Shown piece after piece: positions 1,232 through 25,331 of a stretch of 25,331 bases of DNA. The stretch spans positions 1 to 25,331 of the IMG/VR virus record IMGVR_UViG_3300033146_006366, one strand, 5' to 3'. The position numbers and the translations under genes were made by a program. The notes beneath the pieces were generated by a model, which was given only the letters and a program-made list of their open reading frames with translations, was not told the DNA's origin and searched no databases. How positions within the stretch are numbered: the stretch's first letter is position 1; each line of letters starts with the position of its first letter. The stretch is from a virus.

Positions 1232-1672
1232 TTATTTTATTTCGATTTCCTTATCTTTTTGCCCTTCCGATAATGGAATCTTAATTGTAAGTAAACCATT
1301 TTCTAATTTTGGTTCAATTTTATTTATATCAAATTTTGGCAATATTTTCCAGCGGTGTTTAAATGATGAATTTTTAATACCGCGAACTCCGTTCTCAAAG
1401 TCTTTATCTTCATCAAGACCGCTTGGTTTTACATATTCAATATTTAATACATTGCCGTCTGTGATTTTAATATTAATATCTTTTTTGCTTTTTCCAACAA
1501 CAGAAGTTTCAATAATTAAATCACCAGTTGATTTTTTTATATAAATATCAACGGGGTAATGTACATCTTTGATTGGAAAGAATTTACTTGATTGGTCAAA
1601 ACCATTACCGAAAAATAAATCTGTGTCTTGTAATAGTTTTTCAAATGTTGTGGTTAAAAATAGGTCTGTCAT
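1232..1672 (-). CDS. hsp20: Small heat-shock protein (Hsp20 / alpha-crystallin family)
   Basis: A 146-residue protein with an alpha-crystallin domain. Residues about 38-140 run from YPVDIYIKKSTGDLIIE through the F.HRWKILPKFDINKIEPKLENGLL segment, which matches the A.LENGLL.I.IP consensus, and the protein ends in an IEI (IXI-type) motif used in oligomerisation. Members are ATP-independent cytoplasmic holdases that keep unfolded proteins soluble. Genes of this kind are common in T4-like cyanophages, where they are thought to help virion protein folding; that role is an inference here. The start is supported by AAGGAGG upstream of ATG at 1672. The gene lies between the split polymerase and DUF932 on the same strand and ends at a strong terminator. 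Confidence 0.93.
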   Translation of the reverse strand: MTDLFLTTTFEKLLQDTDLFFGNGFDQSSKFFPIKDVHYPVDIYIKKSTGDLIIETSVVGKSKKDINIKITDGNVLNIEYVKPSGLDEDKDFENGVRGIKNSSFKHRWKILPKFDINKIEPKLENGLLTIKIPLSEGQKDKEIEIK

Positions 1673-1807: not shown

Positions 1808-3241
1808 TTACCCAAATATGTCATCAAATGAATTTATTTCAGTTTTAACGTTATCATAACCTAATATATTCCACCACCTATCTGCTAATTGAATACAAGT
1901 CTTATTCCATAATGCGTCATAGTCAATTTCAAATATTTTATTGAATTCTTCAGGCCATTTATCTAAAAAGCCGACTGAAGTAAATTTATACTTATTATTT
2001 GGCTTTACTGCAATAAAACACATTAAATCACCATTTGTAATTGCAGGTTCTTTTATTAGCTTTAGTTCTTTTATTAAAAAATTATAATTTACTGCAGCTT
2101 TATTTCTTGCTGGAGATTTAAAAGCATATTGAATTGTACCATTTTTTAGTTTTAATGGAACAGAATATTTATCGTATGAAGATATTGAACCTCTTACTGC
2201 TATTTCTTCAATTGCTTGTTTTTCAAATTCTTTTCTTTTTTCTCTCATAAATTCATTTAATTCTTTTTTAGATTTTTTATCCAAAATCATTCTTAAAGCT
2301 TTTTCTAATACAGTTCTAATAAAAAATGGTTTATCTCGTTTCTTTACTTCAATGCCAATATTTTTAAATTTTAAATTATCAGAATAATCAATACCTTCAT
2401 CATCAACAATATAGCTTGCGTAATGTTTACGACCAGTAACGAACATACTTTCAATTATTTTTTCAGGTTTAAAATTAATACTTCTTCCTGAATTATAATA
2501 GCTGTCATATAAATCAGTACTTTTATCAATTAAAGGTATTATTACTTTTTTATTAAAATCAAGAGCCCAATCTCGATATTCAGCTGAATTTTTAAAATTT
2601 AAATTAAGTACTTTAACAACTTCTTCTAATGAAATATAATTTGAATCTGTATCTATTAATCTAACAACATCTTTTTTAATTTTATTATTTTCATTTATAT
2701 CATCAAAATAATCTTTATTTTTATAAAATTCGTTTTTAAAATAATCATTAAACATTCTGCTCATAAATTTTATTAAATGCTGACCTGTTAAAGTAATACA
2801 TCTTGCGTTATCAATATTAAATAAATGAAAATACCTATTTCCAAGCGCTCCATATAATGAGTTTATTCTGATTTTCCAACGATGCTGACTTCGGTCATAA
2901 AAATCAGAACTCATATTTCCTTCTTTATCAATATCAGAACAATATTTATCAAAGTCTTCTTCAGATAATTTTGTTTTCTTTAATAATTCTGATTTTTCTG
3001 TAATACCTTGCTCTTTCCAATATTGAATTGATTTTTTAGCTTTTTCTTCTAATCTTTTATTAAAACCAAACTCAACTATTTTTGAAATAATTGACTGCTT
3101 ATCTTTTTTATAATAAATATTTCCAATTGTCATTTCCCCACTACTAATTGGCCATTTTTTTACTTTTGATAATGGAGTTTCTTGTAAGTCTTCAATCGGC
3201 CTATAAATTGTTTCAATTTTTGATATTACGATTTCTTTCAT
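1808..3241 (-). CDS. gp43 (C-terminal part): Family B DNA polymerase, C-terminal (polymerase) part of a split gp43
   Basis: A 477-residue protein matching the C-terminal half of T4 gp43. Residues 127-135 (NSLYGALGN) are motif B and DTDS at 197-200 is motif C with catalytic aspartates. The last residues, SFDDIFG, resemble the T4 gp43 C-terminus SLDFLFG that binds the sliding clamp. The N-terminal 120 residues correspond to the T4 fingers region between motifs A and B. The exonuclease domain and motif A (D..SLYPS) are absent, so a partner polypeptide must supply one catalytic aspartate. The ORF has its own ATG and an AAAGGT ribosome binding site and is not preceded by polymerase sequence, so it is a genuine separate gene rather than a local frameshift. 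Split gp43 genes (43A/43B) are known in some Aeromonas T4-like phages. The N-terminal half is not in this window. Confidence 0.9.
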   Translation of the reverse strand: MKEIVISKIETIYRPIEDLQETPLSKVKKWPISSGEMTIGNIYYKKDKQSIISKIVEFGFNKRLEEKAKKSIQYWKEQGITEKSELLKKTKLSEEDFDKYCSDIDKEGNMSSDFYDRSQHRWKIRINSLYGALGNRYFHLFNIDNARCITLTGQHLIKFMSRMFNDYFKNEFYKNKDYFDDINENNKIKKDVVRLIDTDSNYISLEEVVKVLNLNFKNSAEYRDWALDFNKKVIIPLIDKSTDLYDSYYNSGRSINFKPEKIIESMFVTGRKHYASYIVDDEGIDYSDNLKFKNIGIEVKKRDKPFFIRTVLEKALRMILDKKSKKELNEFMREKRKEFEKQAIEEIAVRGSISSYDKYSVPLKLKNGTIQYAFKSPARNKAAVNYNFLIKELKLIKEPAITNGDLMCFIAVKPNNKYKFTSVGFLDKWPEEFNKIFEIDYDALWNKTCIQLADRWWNILGYDNVKTEINSFDDIFG

Positions 3242-13197: not shown

Positions 13198-14037
13198 ATG
13201 CCAGTATCTAAAAAAACAATTAAAAAAGAAGAAACAATTAAAACTCCAATTACTGAGGAAGAAAGCATAAAAATTCCTCAAGATTATATTAAAATGCCTG
13301 CTGAAAATCTTAGCACGAAAGGCATTTATTATGATTTCGATATTTATTGCCGTTCTCTAAAAGGTTCTGAAATAATGCGCTTAGCTGATATTGATGAAAC
13401 TAATGCAGACGAAATAATTGATAACATATTGAGTGATGTCATTTTGTTATCAAAACCAAACAAAACTTATAAAAAAGATATTTATTTGAATGACAAATTA
13501 AACTTGCTATTTTTTGTCAGAGTGCTTACCTATAAAGACCCCAATTTCAAAATAAATTATACTTGTTCAAATGAATCTTGTAAAGCAGAAAATAAATTAC
13601 ATTTTACAATGGATAATGTAGAAATAAATTATATAGATTCTACAATAAGCGATAAAGATTTAAAGTATAAAACTGAAGATGGAGTTCTAATAAATTTTAA
13701 TTTAATAACAATTGAAGAAGAAAGTAATATTAGAACATTAATATCAGAATTAGAAAAAAGCTGCAAACGAAACAATTTATATTATGACTCAGACCTTGCT
13801 TTATTGAGCGCAATGGTAAAAATTAATAGTGAAGGTTTTGAAAATGAATTTCTTAAATATAAATATTTCATTGATAAAATTAGCGCTGTTGATTTAGTAA
13901 AATTAAAAAGTAAAATAAACAAATTAGAATGCGGTATAACAACTGAAATTAAGAGCAATTGCTCGGAATGTGGAGGTCAGGACTTAGTTCCTGTAATGTT
14001 TTTCGGCGAGTTCTTTATTCCCGAATATATCGCGTAA
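13198..14037 (+). CDS. gp26: gp26-type baseplate hub / tail-assembly (chaperone-like) protein
   Basis: A 279-residue protein resembling the T4 gp26 baseplate hub-assembly family (Pfam T4_baseplate). It has a charged N-terminus, the IYCRSLKGSEIMRLADIDE segment, a helical domain (residues about 75-110), and a Cys-based zinc site: C123 and C128 (CSNESC) and C255 and C258 (CSEC), split by a long insertion as in zinc ribbons of this family. T4 gp26 is about 208 residues. These proteins act in baseplate hub/tape-measure assembly and may not be part of the virion. The gene's stop at 14037 lies inside an out-of-frame open stretch that continues for 54 codons, which looks like a programmed frameshift product (see the next feature). 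The ribosome binding site is AAAGGTG ten bases before the ATG. Confidence 0.7.
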   Translation: MPVSKKTIKKEETIKTPITEEESIKIPQDYIKMPAENLSTKGIYYDFDIYCRSLKGSEIMRLADIDETNADEIIDNILSDVILLSKPNKTYKKDIYLNDKLNLLFFVRVLTYKDPNFKINYTCSNESCKAENKLHFTMDNVEINYIDSTISDKDLKYKTEDGVLINFNLITIEEESNIRTLISELEKSCKRNNLYYDSDLALLSAMVKINSEGFENEFLKYKYFIDKISAVDLVKLKSKINKLECGITTEIKSNCSECGGQDLVPVMFFGEFFIPEYIA

Positions 14038-14203
14038 GGCGTTTTTAGATTTAACATTTAAAGTTGCAAAATATTTTGGTTTTAACCCATTTGATTTAAA
14101 GGATGAGAGCTTAGCAGAAATTATATATTATTCAGATAAAATAGATGAACTGTATGAAGCTGATGAAAATGAAAATAATGTTGCAATACCAAAAATTAAT
14201 TAA
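13997..14203 (+). CDS. Start-less out-of-frame ORF overlapping the gp26-type gene; candidate frameshift extension
   Basis: This frame is open from 13997 to the TAA at 14201-14203. It encodes KAFLDLTFKVAKYFGFNPFD, then LKDESLAEIIYYSDKIDELY and an acidic tail, which reads like a real alpha-helical protein domain. It contains no ATG, GTG or TTG, and only an ATA at 14027. It overlaps the end of the gp26-type gene in the +1 (equivalently -2) frame. Slippery candidates in the overlap are TTT-TTC at 13999-14004 and CCC-G at 14020-14023. A slip at the first would fuse 268-269 residues of gp26 to 66 more. The pattern matches the tape-measure chaperone pairs of lambda (G/G-T), P2 (E/E') and Mu, although those use -1 or -2 shifts. 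In T4, gene 26 is followed by gene 51, so this ORF may be the gp51 equivalent. Translation by re-initiation at ATA is possible but less likely. Confidence 0.55.
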   Translation, partial: CFSASSLFPNISRKAFLDLTFKVAKYFGFNPFDLKDESLAEIIYYSDKIDELYEADENENNVAIPKIN

Positions 14204-14225: not shown

Positions 14226-14795
14226 ATGGTTGTAATAAATAGAACAAAAGAAGATATAAAGATTAGAGAGCTGAAAAGAATAGTACCGGCGGATGGCAAG
14301 AAATATATTTTGCCCGCTGATGTTGCGTTTAAATATAAATCATTATTAATACCGGTTCAAATGTCAGATTCAATGTATGACCCAAAAACAAAAGAAACAC
14401 CAAGGATGAAAATTTCAAATAACAAAACAACAAAATTATCTCAAGGCGAAATGCAAGCTGCAAAAGATAAAGCAATTGATTTGTATTATAATAAAGGCAT
14501 TAAAGTGTACGCTGAAATTGGAAGACTTATACCAAATGTTTCATTACAAACATTGAAAAAAGCAATTAAATCAGCAGGAGAATCTAAAAAAGATTCAATT
14601 TCAAATACAATTAAAGAAAAAGTTGAAAAGACTTTAAATTATAAAATCGAAAATTATACTGAAGAAGATGCGCAATTAGTAATTGATACATTTATAGATG
14701 GAGTTTTATCGACTTCTGCAGATATTGCTGAAGCATTAGGATTTAGCCCAGAATTTGTTGAGAAAACTCTATTTACGTACAACAAAAATAAATAA
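14226..14795 (+). CDS. Unknown protein with two possible helix-turn-helix segments
   Basis: A 189-residue protein that I do not recognise. The N-terminal 50 residues are mixed beta. Two segments have helix-turn-helix-like spacing: VYAEIGRLIPNVSLQTLKKA near residues 98-117 and TSADIAEALGFSPEFVEKTL near 165-184. A DNA-binding or packaging role is conceivable. The gene starts 22 bases after the out-of-frame ORF, with AAAAGGAG as ribosome binding site, and ends just before the gp13 late-type promoter. Its position between tail-assembly and neck genes suggests a virion-assembly role, but a transcription regulator is equally possible. Confidence 0.6.
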   Translation: MVVINRTKEDIKIRELKRIVPADGKKYILPADVAFKYKSLLIPVQMSDSMYDPKTKETPRMKISNNKTTKLSQGEMQAAKDKAIDLYYNKGIKVYAEIGRLIPNVSLQTLKKAIKSAGESKKDSISNTIKEKVEKTLNYKIENYTEEDAQLVIDTFIDGVLSTSADIAEALGFSPEFVEKTLFTYNKNK

Positions 14796-16178: not shown

Positions 16179-16850
16179 TTAAAGTAAATCATCTAAATAT
16201 TTAAAATGCCTTTCATAAATATGAATACTTCCAGCATTCCAAATCAAATCACCCAATTTAAGTTTTGGGTATTTTTCAATTAAATCGTAATATAATTTTT
16301 TATGAACATATTGTGCCCAATAAAAATCATTATTATATCCAAATACAGCATCATTACTTCTAATATTATAAACAGAAATTAAAGAGTCATTTCTAATAAA
16401 AAATTGGTTAGACGTGGTACAAATAAAATCTGACATCCCATCTTTATTATAATCAATATGCATTGAAGGTCTTTGATAAATCATTAAAGCTCTACGGCTA
16501 AATTTATTATTAATTAGTTCATTTTTAACATTTTCATATTGATTATAATTTTCATCACTAAATATTAAATAACCATAATTTGAATTTATTTTGCCGTTTT
16601 TATCTGCGACTTGTTTCCATATCAAAGGAGTTTTTCCAGGTATGTCTTCAACAAACAAAGATTGTGACTCATACCAACTTAATTCCCTTTTTACATAATC
16701 TAAATTTGGTTTTCTAATAATATGATCTGTATCGGCAATAAAAGTTGCTGCAATTAATTCAATCAATTTTGCTCCGGTTTTATCAATTACAAAATCTTTA
16801 TTTTTGTATTGTTCAACAAAAGCATTTTTAATATCTTGAGTATTATACAT
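16179..16850 (-). CDS. Thymidylate-synthase-family enzyme, probable dCMP hydroxymethylase
   Basis: A 223-residue protein of the thymidylate synthase fold (T4 dCMP hydroxymethylase is 246). Recognisable residues, by alignment to E. coli thymidylate synthase: E56 (catalytic Glu), R119-R120 (phosphate-binding pair), C144 (nucleophile, FICTTSNQF) with Q149, R164-S165-x-D167, G171, and H210-x-Y212 (SIHIYERHF). The residue that reads Asn177 in thymidylate synthase is D175 here (VFGYNNDF). In T4 dCMP hydroxymethylase this position is Asp and selects cytosine over uracil. The expected reaction is conversion of dCMP plus methylene-tetrahydrofolate to 5-hydroxymethyl-dCMP. It starts seven bases after the dNTP pyrophosphatase-like gene, with its ribosome binding site inside that gene's end, so the two are coupled. 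Alternative: a dUMP-using relative. Confidence 0.8.
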   Translation of the reverse strand: MYNTQDIKNAFVEQYKNKDFVIDKTGAKLIELIAATFIADTDHIIRKPNLDYVKRELSWYESQSLFVEDIPGKTPLIWKQVADKNGKINSNYGYLIFSDENYNQYENVKNELINNKFSRRALMIYQRPSMHIDYNKDGMSDFICTTSNQFFIRNDSLISVYNIRSNDAVFGYNNDFYWAQYVHKKLYYDLIEKYPKLKLGDLIWNAGSIHIYERHFKYLDDLL

Positions 16851-24241: not shown

Positions 24242-25030
24242 CTACTTAATAACTTTTACTTCATACCCAAGCAAATCTGAAATTTCTTCAACGCTAAGCT
24301 CCTTTGCTTCCGGTTTTAAATCATCATTAATATAATAAACTGCATCAAGATTATTATCAGCTGCAGTTTTACATATTTCTTCAGTTTGATTTTCTACGTA
24401 TTGCAAAGCAAGACCGTTTTGTTTAACTGCAGTTTTACATATTTCTTCAGTTTGATTTTCCACGTATTGCAAATTATAACCATTTTGTTTGACTGCAATT
24501 TTACATATTTCTTCAGTCTGGTTTTTCACGTATTGCAAATTATAACCGTCTTGTTTGACTGCAATTTTACATATTTCTTCAGTCTGGTTTACCATAAGCT
24601 GTAAAGCAAGACCATTTTCTTTGACTGCGATTTTACAAATTTCTTCAGTTTGATTTTTCACGTATTGCAAATTATAACCATTTTGTTTGACTGCAATTTT
24701 ACATATTTCTTCAGTCTGATTTTTTACAAACTGTAAAGCATAACCATTTTCTTTGACTGCTTCAATACATATTTCCTCGGTTTGGTTTTTTACAAACTGT
24801 AAAGAGTGACTGTTTTGTTTTACTGCTTCAATACAAATTTCTTCAGTCTGATTTTTTACGTATCGCAAATTAGAACTGTCTTTTTTGACCGCTTCAATAC
24901 AAATTTCTTTAGTCTGGTTTTTTACATATTGCAAGTTAAAACCATTTTCTTTTACTGCTGCTAAAGATTCTTCTTCAGTGAAATATTTATAACTTTTATT
25001 CTTTAATTTGATAAGATCTCTGATTTCCAT
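24242..25030 (-). CDS. DUF4116-like repeat protein (nine 22-residue repeats)
   Basis: A 262-residue protein. Residues 26-223 are nine tandem repeats of 22 residues, each beginning VK(E/Q), with LQYV or LQFV in the middle and ending NQTEEIC plus four residues. The spacing and the 'A.k.nG..Lq.v....' pattern resemble the DUF4116 family found in phages, giant viruses and bacteria, of unknown function; helical-repeat folding is expected. A 25-residue N-terminal cap and a 39-residue C-terminal tail (DAVYYINDDLKPEAKELS...) flank the repeats. The tail recurs at the end of the upstream neighbour, so the two are paralogues in tandem. AAAGGAG precedes the ATG. Confidence 0.75.
   Translation of the reverse strand: MEIRDLIKLKNKSYKYFTEEESLAAVKENGFNLQYVKNQTKEICIEAVKKDSSNLRYVKNQTEEICIEAVKQNSHSLQFVKNQTEEICIEAVKENGYALQFVKNQTEEICKIAVKQNGYNLQYVKNQTEEICKIAVKENGLALQLMVNQTEEICKIAVKQDGYNLQYVKNQTEEICKIAVKQNGYNLQYVENQTEEICKTAVKQNGLALQYVENQTEEICKTAADNNLDAVYYINDDLKPEAKELSVEEISDLLGYEVKVIK
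24362..24955 (-). repeat. Nine 66-bp coding repeats
   Basis: Period 66 bp, equal to 22 codons, with similarity high at the DNA level as well (the complement of ATTTCTTCAGTCTGGTTTT recurs with few changes). The units are not separated by unique spacers, so this is a coding repeat and not a CRISPR array. Confidence 0.85.
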
Positions 25031-25049
25031 TTTTTAAAACTCCTTTGTT

Positions 25050-25331
25050 TTATTTTATAATTTTTACTTCACACCCAAGTAAATCTGAAATTTCTTCAAT
25101 ACTAAGTTCCTTTGCTTCCGGTTTTAAATCATCATTAATATAATAAACTGCATCAGGGTCTTGACCAGCTGCGGCTAAACAAATTTCTTCAGTTTGATTT
25201 TCCACGTATTGCAAAGCAAGGCCGTTTTGTTTAACTGCAGTTTTACATATTTCTTCAGTCTGATTTTCCACGAACTGTAAAGCAAGACCATTTTCTTTGA
25301 CTGCGATTTTACAAATTTCTTCAGTTTGATT
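25050..25331 (-). CDS. Second DUF4116-like repeat protein, cut by the window edge
   Basis: The frame is open to the right edge. The 93 visible residues are the C-terminal end: the NQTEEICKIA end of one repeat, two full 22-residue repeats (VKENGLALQFV... and VKQNGLALQYV...), then the variant A-G-Q-D-P-D-A-V-Y-Y-I-N-D-D tail ending EEISDLLGCEVKIIK. The tail is nearly that of the downstream paralogue. An internal GTG at 25271 is inside a repeat and is not a convincing start. The gene ends 19 bases before the start of the other copy, so they are probably cotranscribed. Confidence 0.75.
   Translation of the reverse strand, partial: NQTEEICKIAVKENGLALQFVENQTEEICKTAVKQNGLALQYVENQTEEICLAAAGQDPDAVYYINDDLKPEAKELSIEEISDLLGCEVKIIK

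Follow-up and report, generated by a model that had tools for sequence, protein, structure and literature searches.

At the end of a gene resembling gene 26 of phage T4, an uncultured phage carries a second open reading frame (ORF) that reaches back into the gene in another frame and has no start codon of its own, which raises the question of how such a frame could be translated and what product it would yield. The locus lies in a 25 kb contig (25,331 nucleotides, the whole analysed stretch being called here the window) with T4-type virion genes. Searches with Pfam and PHROG recognise among them a tail sheath stabiliser gp15 (PF16724), a tail tube protein (phrog_45), baseplate wedge proteins of the gp6 and gp25 types (phrog_219 and phrog_261/43) and a gp13-type neck protein (phrog_211). 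The gp26-type gene, which would encode the short form of a tail-assembly chaperone, occupies 13198..14037 (+) and specifies 279 aa; it is located between tube-type genes and the neck gene. The next gene downstream (14226..14795, +), for a 189-aa protein, has its own ATG and is not part of the chaperone; the gene of the gp13-like neck protein comes after it. A tape measure gene was recognised neither next to the gp26-type gene nor elsewhere in the window.

The window also contains genes of other kinds. A 477-aa ORF with its own ATG at 1808-3241 (-) matches only the C-terminal half of a T4-type DNA polymerase (phrog_262 positions 455-851 of 856; PF00136); since no N-terminal half adjoins it, a split polymerase is suggested. 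Adjoining this gene is a small heat-shock protein (HSP20, PF00011) at 1232-1672 (-), while a thymidylate synthase (PF00303) is found among the structural genes at 16179-16850 (-). Two consecutive ORFs of DUF4116-type repeats occupy 24242-25271 (-), the first with nine matched stretches, and their near-identical units read KNQTEEICxxAVKQNG.

The gp26-type protein gives no direct match to PF12322 (T4_baseplate) or phrog_150 in Pfam and PHROG searches. A loose-threshold tblastn gave long matches annotated as 'baseplate protein' or 'baseplate hub subunit'. A profile was then made of 23 other gp26-type proteins, T4 gp26 among them; members of it match PF12322 at 2e-24 or better. With this profile, hmmsearch finds the window gene at 3.7e-16 (search size of 20,000 sequences), and the hhalign alignment, at 1.7e-15, covers residues 40-276 and takes in the C-terminal CxxC...EFF motif. 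These profile matches assign the window gene to the T4 gp26 family, within which it is divergent. Its C-terminus is zinc-knuckle-like (CSECGG...EFFIPEYIA) and the ORF closes with the codons GAG TTC TTT ATT CCC GAA TAT ATC GCG TAA; in T4, too, gp26 is normally short and ends at this point. No PDB relative was found, and an AlphaFold model of gp26 from two sequences reached a pLDDT of 36, too poor for a fold search.

The start-less ORF extends over 68 codons in the +1 frame (13997..14203, +) and would form the C-terminal domain of the proposed long form. Its first 41 nt are shared with the end of the gp26-type gene, and it closes 55 codon steps after the gp26 stop. The overlap is open from 13997 and the frame is devoid of ATG, GTG and TTG, both as described in an earlier, sequence-only reading of this DNA. 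The -1 frame, in turn, closes 3 codon steps past the gp26 stop. The length of the ORF is weak evidence on its own, because three other start-less ORFs of at least 68 codons are present in the window, although an open run of 67 codons has a P of about 0.003 from base composition alone; it is the coding score and the conservation that carry the case. On a score based on codon usage in the window's other genes, the +1 frame after the gp26 stop reaches 0.391 per codon and the other two forward frames -0.763 and -1.440; as controls, real genes have a mean of 0.30 and 34 stop-free out-of-frame segments a maximum of -0.19. By these coding statistics the +1 ORF is translated. Helices are predicted at its residues 13-27 and 37-58 (AlphaFold with two sequences, mean pLDDT 61), and it has no PHROG or Pfam match.

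Conservation can be followed at close range in one relative, L001, a separate contig encoding a gp26-type protein 53% identical to that of the window. When viral contigs were scanned with gp26 and the neck protein, L001 was the only close relative to emerge, and genome contigs scanned for such relatives yielded none; besides the contig of L001, a DNA pattern scan returned L004, which was discarded as an unrelated chance match. Alignment of the junction with relatives had been proposed as a check, and L001 indeed keeps the 41-nt overlap, the +1 frame and a matching C-terminal domain. Its overlap likewise lacks a start codon; the earliest one, an ATG, stands 85 nt beyond the gp26 stop and already within the domain. 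Past the slip, the two +1 frames share 27 of 42 aligned residues, and their differences by codon position (8/9/17) are concentrated at third positions. The gene at 14226..14795 is syntenic in L001 as well (54% identical). A profile of other downstream (gp51-type) domains finds the domain of L001 at 2.5e-4 and that of the window at 0.054, and hhalign of the start-less domain against these other domains gives a P-value of 2.7e-4 with low probability; the resemblance of this domain to the gp51 type is accordingly weak.

The junction itself is invariant between the window and L001, the two sequences on which its conservation at close range rests. A block of nine codons plus TA (GAGTTCTTTATTCCCGAATATATCGCGTA; 14008..14036, +), formed by the last nine sense codons of gp26, is identical in DNA, so that 9/9 junction codons are shared, as against 57% of the amino-acid-identical codons elsewhere in the gene. 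The block contains CCC, ATC, GCG, TTC and GAG, which are rare codons in this A+T-rich genome; in the window, for example, CCC accounts for 12 of 202 Pro codons, ATC for 36 of 690 Ile codons and GCG for 30 of 366 Ala codons. A simulation of synonymous choice gives P = 0.0007 for the nine codons, yet 1.3% of real nine-codon stretches are equally rare.

Judged from the sequences, it is very probable that a +1 programmed ribosomal frameshift at this locus makes a long tail-assembly chaperone of the gp26-gp51 type. The overlap, its frame, the missing starts, the coding character, the conservation and, by profile, the gp26-family membership are seen directly; we infer the occurrence of the frameshift, its codon and its frequency. 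Most ribosomes on the gp26-type gene would stop at TAA 14035 and release the 279-residue short chaperone. A fraction would slip by +1 near the end of the gene, most likely through movement of tRNA-Pro from CCC (14020-14022) to CCG (14021-14023), and read the start-less frame to TAA 14201, giving a 334-residue long chaperone (...GEFFIP-NISRKAFLDLTFK...). A chaperone role of the gp26-type products would follow from their family and from analogy: as in the lambda gpG/gpGT system, the coat around the tape measure protein would consist of many short copies and a few long ones, whose extra domain would recruit tail tube subunits. The sequence-only reading had likewise joined gp26 to a start-less gp51-type domain by frameshift as the tape-measure chaperone pair, a proposal that now gains support from L001 and from dozens of distant gp26 genes.

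Other explanations of the start-less frame have to be considered. The downstream domain might be translated alone, either from an unusual start codon or by ribosomes re-initiating behind the gp26 stop, and in KVP40, Yut3, BX-1, K475 and 207E48 an ATG does overlap that stop, making coupling possible there. The window frame, however, lacks all three usual starts, the only early near-cognate start that it has in common with L001 (ATA 14027) is not preceded by a Shine-Dalgarno sequence, and in T4 gp51 the domain is attached to a gp26-like body; independent translation is thus very unlikely. Even less credence can be given to a sequencing error, or to a recent frameshift mutation splitting one long gene: a one-base difference would merge both frames, but an identical frame relation is seen at 53% identity in the separate contig L001, dozens of unrelated assemblies repeat the +1 layout, and the normal T4 gp26 also ends at this point. 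Slippage of the transcript rather than of the ribosome could in principle join the frames at the run of five T at 13999-14003, yet the corresponding run in L001 is four T followed by A and no longer homopolymer is present in the overlap, which makes this explanation equally far-fetched.

If a ribosomal shift does occur, CCC_G (14020..14023, +) is probably its site, with re-pairing of tRNA-Pro from CCC to CCG and AAT as the next codon. The slip is placed here because CCC lies in the invariant block and CCC_N is the sole candidate in four distant loci. Within the block, only CCC re-pairs after a +1 move; CCC_GAA is identical in L001, and CCC_A is found at the same position in L048, L051, L054 and L058, where no other candidate re-pairs. 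The sequence-only reading had listed this codon in second place, behind TTT-TTC at 13999-14004. The latter offers an alternative +1 site, TTT_T (13999..14002, +), 21 nt upstream of CCC, at which tRNA-Phe would re-pair from UUU to UUU; it is the less likely of the two, though still to be taken seriously. TTT_T re-pairs perfectly in both the window (TTT_TTC) and L001 (TTT_TAC), and most of the SP-15-like and huge-phage relatives apparently use TTT_C or TTT_T. On the other hand, it lies outside the invariant block, which starts at GAG 14008, the two codons right after it differ between the window and L001 in both frames, and it has no counterpart at its position in most related groups. Moreover, at the homologous EFFxP position CCC is used by 6/6 members with a Pro codon and without TTT_C, against 3/14 of the rest, a contrast that rests on few independent lineages. 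The TTT-TTC sequence is present in the window, as had been claimed, but L001 has TTT-TAC in its place, on which a +1 slip at TTT_T can still re-pair; it does not hold as the preferred site.

Slip codons in more distant relatives are distributed by group. In most SP-15-like members the second Phe codon of the EFF motif forms TTT_C, and those without it (L048, L051, L054 and L058) have, like the window and L001, CCC_N two codons further; LIS04 departs from this pattern, having TTT_TTT but no CCC at that place. Huge-phage members have TTT in 54/54 and CCC in 50/54 at a single spot. Two huge-phage gp26 genes, L009 (about 2630-2660) and L011 (about 2660-2690), carry an identical stretch, TGTGGTGAGGAGGTCCACACGGATATG, just before TTT_CCC. 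For SP-15, LIS04 and GXN1, a shared NCC_C(GA) site was also considered and dropped when more loci showed that TTT_C prevails in that group. As to direction, a slip of '+1 or -2' had been envisaged, of which the +1 stands and the -2 does not: there is no good conserved re-pairing site for it, two-base re-pairing being limited to ATC to ATA and, at 14002, a TTC to TTT move that L001 has lost. The expected junction peptide is ...VMFFGEFFIPNISR for a slip at CCC_G and ...VMFSASSLFPNISR for a slip at TTT_T; from the purified product it would be SNCSECGGQDLVPVMFFGEFFIPNISR or SNCSECGGQDLVPVMFSASSLFPNISR, respectively.

Stimulatory elements were sought around the junction. Downstream RNA structure is no better than in shuffled sequences (z of +1.1 in the window and -0.6 in L001), and no well-placed Shine-Dalgarno sequence for a frameshift was found. 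With CCC in the P site, the codon in the A site is GAA, a common one, with no obvious slowing of the ribosome at this point. The GGAGG previously suggested as a stimulator does exist, at 13972-13976 rather than 13973-13977, but that role is not supported, as the P-site codon is some 43 nt further downstream and the GGAGG letters belong to the CxxCGG codons. A small hairpin at 13978-13993 (+) precedes the overlap and has a counterpart at about 3781-3797 in L001; the two have the same CTTAGT loop and differ by one A-T to C-G double change and the loss of one pair, which is too little to call the hairpin a signal.

Nearly every gp26 gene examined outside T4 is followed by a short helical-looking domain in an overlapping frame, with motifs such as MPWERE or MPYYEYE. 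The exception is the T-even-like Enterobacter phage id4496, whose -1 ORF at this overlap resembles a gene for a wedge protein of the gp25 type. Among distinct IMG/VR metagenomic junctions of two more distant gp26 groups, the downstream domain is in the +1 frame in 76 of 79 (SP-15-like, 24/27; huge-phage-like, 52/52), and this layout is also present in GXN1, SP-15, LIS04, LR756508 and three huge-phage records. A -1 frame is found in Kyanoviridae (Bellamy, S-SM2, P-SSM7), Aeromonas 65, KVP40, Ochrobactrum OC, Stenotrophomonas Yut3, Acidovorax ACP17 and Atu_ph07, the site of the group being T_TTT_TTC or T_TTT_TTT (T_TTT_TTY), one or two codons before the stop. In XacN1 and LR756511 the -1 domain stands behind polyT, while Ackermannviridae and the related phage K475 have a shorter T run and an ATG overlapping the gp26 stop, so that translational coupling is possible. 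Three loci matching the SP-15-type profile (L062, L063 and L064) have the -1, polyT form, and one profile thus spans both directions. The gene after the junction is an annotated tape measure in LIS04, a 'putative tail protein' in SP-15 and a long unannotated ORF in GXN1. The gp51-type domain is mis-annotated in SP-15, LIS04, GXN1, Aeromonas 65 and P-SSM7; these five public annotations either omit it or use an internal ATG, with the frame open back into gp26.

T4 gp51 matches phrog_150 over 3-248 and phrog_634 over 147-246, and cyanophage gp51, in the -1 frame, matches phrog_634. On these matches T4 gp51, which is more than the downstream domain alone, is a natural fusion of a gp26-like body and the C-terminal domain, i.e. 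the complete long form. It seems likely that one gp26-gp51 junction is used in three modes across the T4 superfamily, with the direction swapped and the products the same: +1 in this phage and in the SP-15-like and huge-phage groups, a large and mostly uncultured set; -1 in cyanophages, schizo-T4 and further phages, on T_TTT_TTY; and, in T4, a pair of separate genes. Such a natural series (+1, -1 and separate genes) lends itself to study of the evolution of frameshift direction at one homologous junction. For annotating many T4-like genomes it also provides a simple rule, the second domain being usually missing or mis-started in the public isolate records examined.

The frameshifted tail chaperone is a known kind of system, a trick common to most long-tailed phages; what would be new is its +1 form on a T4-type gp26. 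In lambda (gpG/gpGT), P2 and Mu, as proposed here, a short chaperone is accompanied by a minor frameshifted long form, the slip lies near the end of the first gene and the second frame has no start of its own. The window thus has the two overlapping, conserved ORFs of the lambda G/GT kind, the second start-less, and a conserved slippery codon in the overlap (CCC_GAA in L001, CCC_N in four loci). The direction of the shift is -1 in lambda and P2 and -2 in Mu, and would be +1 in the window; the forward direction is less usual than -1, which is common but not strictly defining. No sequence match was seen between lambda, P2 or Mu and the window genes. The tail chaperone frameshift has been described as conserved 'except T4', and the myovirus HSTV-2 very likely uses +1 (PMC5009743). 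T4 has long been listed as the exception, and a T4-type gp26 here appears to carry the missing long form, in +1. By profile, T4 gp26/gp51 (PF12322; phrog_150, phrog_634) belong to the same gp26 family, and the C-terminus of gp51 corresponds in position to the start-less domain; in T4, however, genes 26 and 51 are separate and on opposite strands, whereas the window has one gene with a putatively frameshifted tail. Vladimirov and colleagues are said to have proposed, in 2022, that a T4-like pair acts as tail chaperones, which we take to be gp26/gp51, consistent with the phrog_150 and phrog_634 matches of gp51. Cases of -1 gp26/gp51 have likely been reported already, and +1 cases may have been. 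T4 gp26 and gp51 are listed as hub assembly chaperones (PMC3004832). Cyanophage gp51 has about 20% of the length of T4 gp51 (Sullivan et al., PMC3037559). The short gp51 of cyanophages and KVP40 ('baseplate hub assembly catalyst') likewise comes right after gp26 in an overlapping frame, but in -1 with T_TTT_TTC at the gp26 end, as opposed to +1 in the window. In Bacillus phage SP-15, Listeria phage LIS04 and Streptococcus phage GXN1, as in the window, a gp26-family gene is overlapped at its end by a domain read in +1, and a tape measure or long tail gene comes next in these three. Their gp26 proteins have about 20% identity to that of the window, the apparent slip codon of the group is mostly TTT_C, and the junction bears no frameshift annotation.
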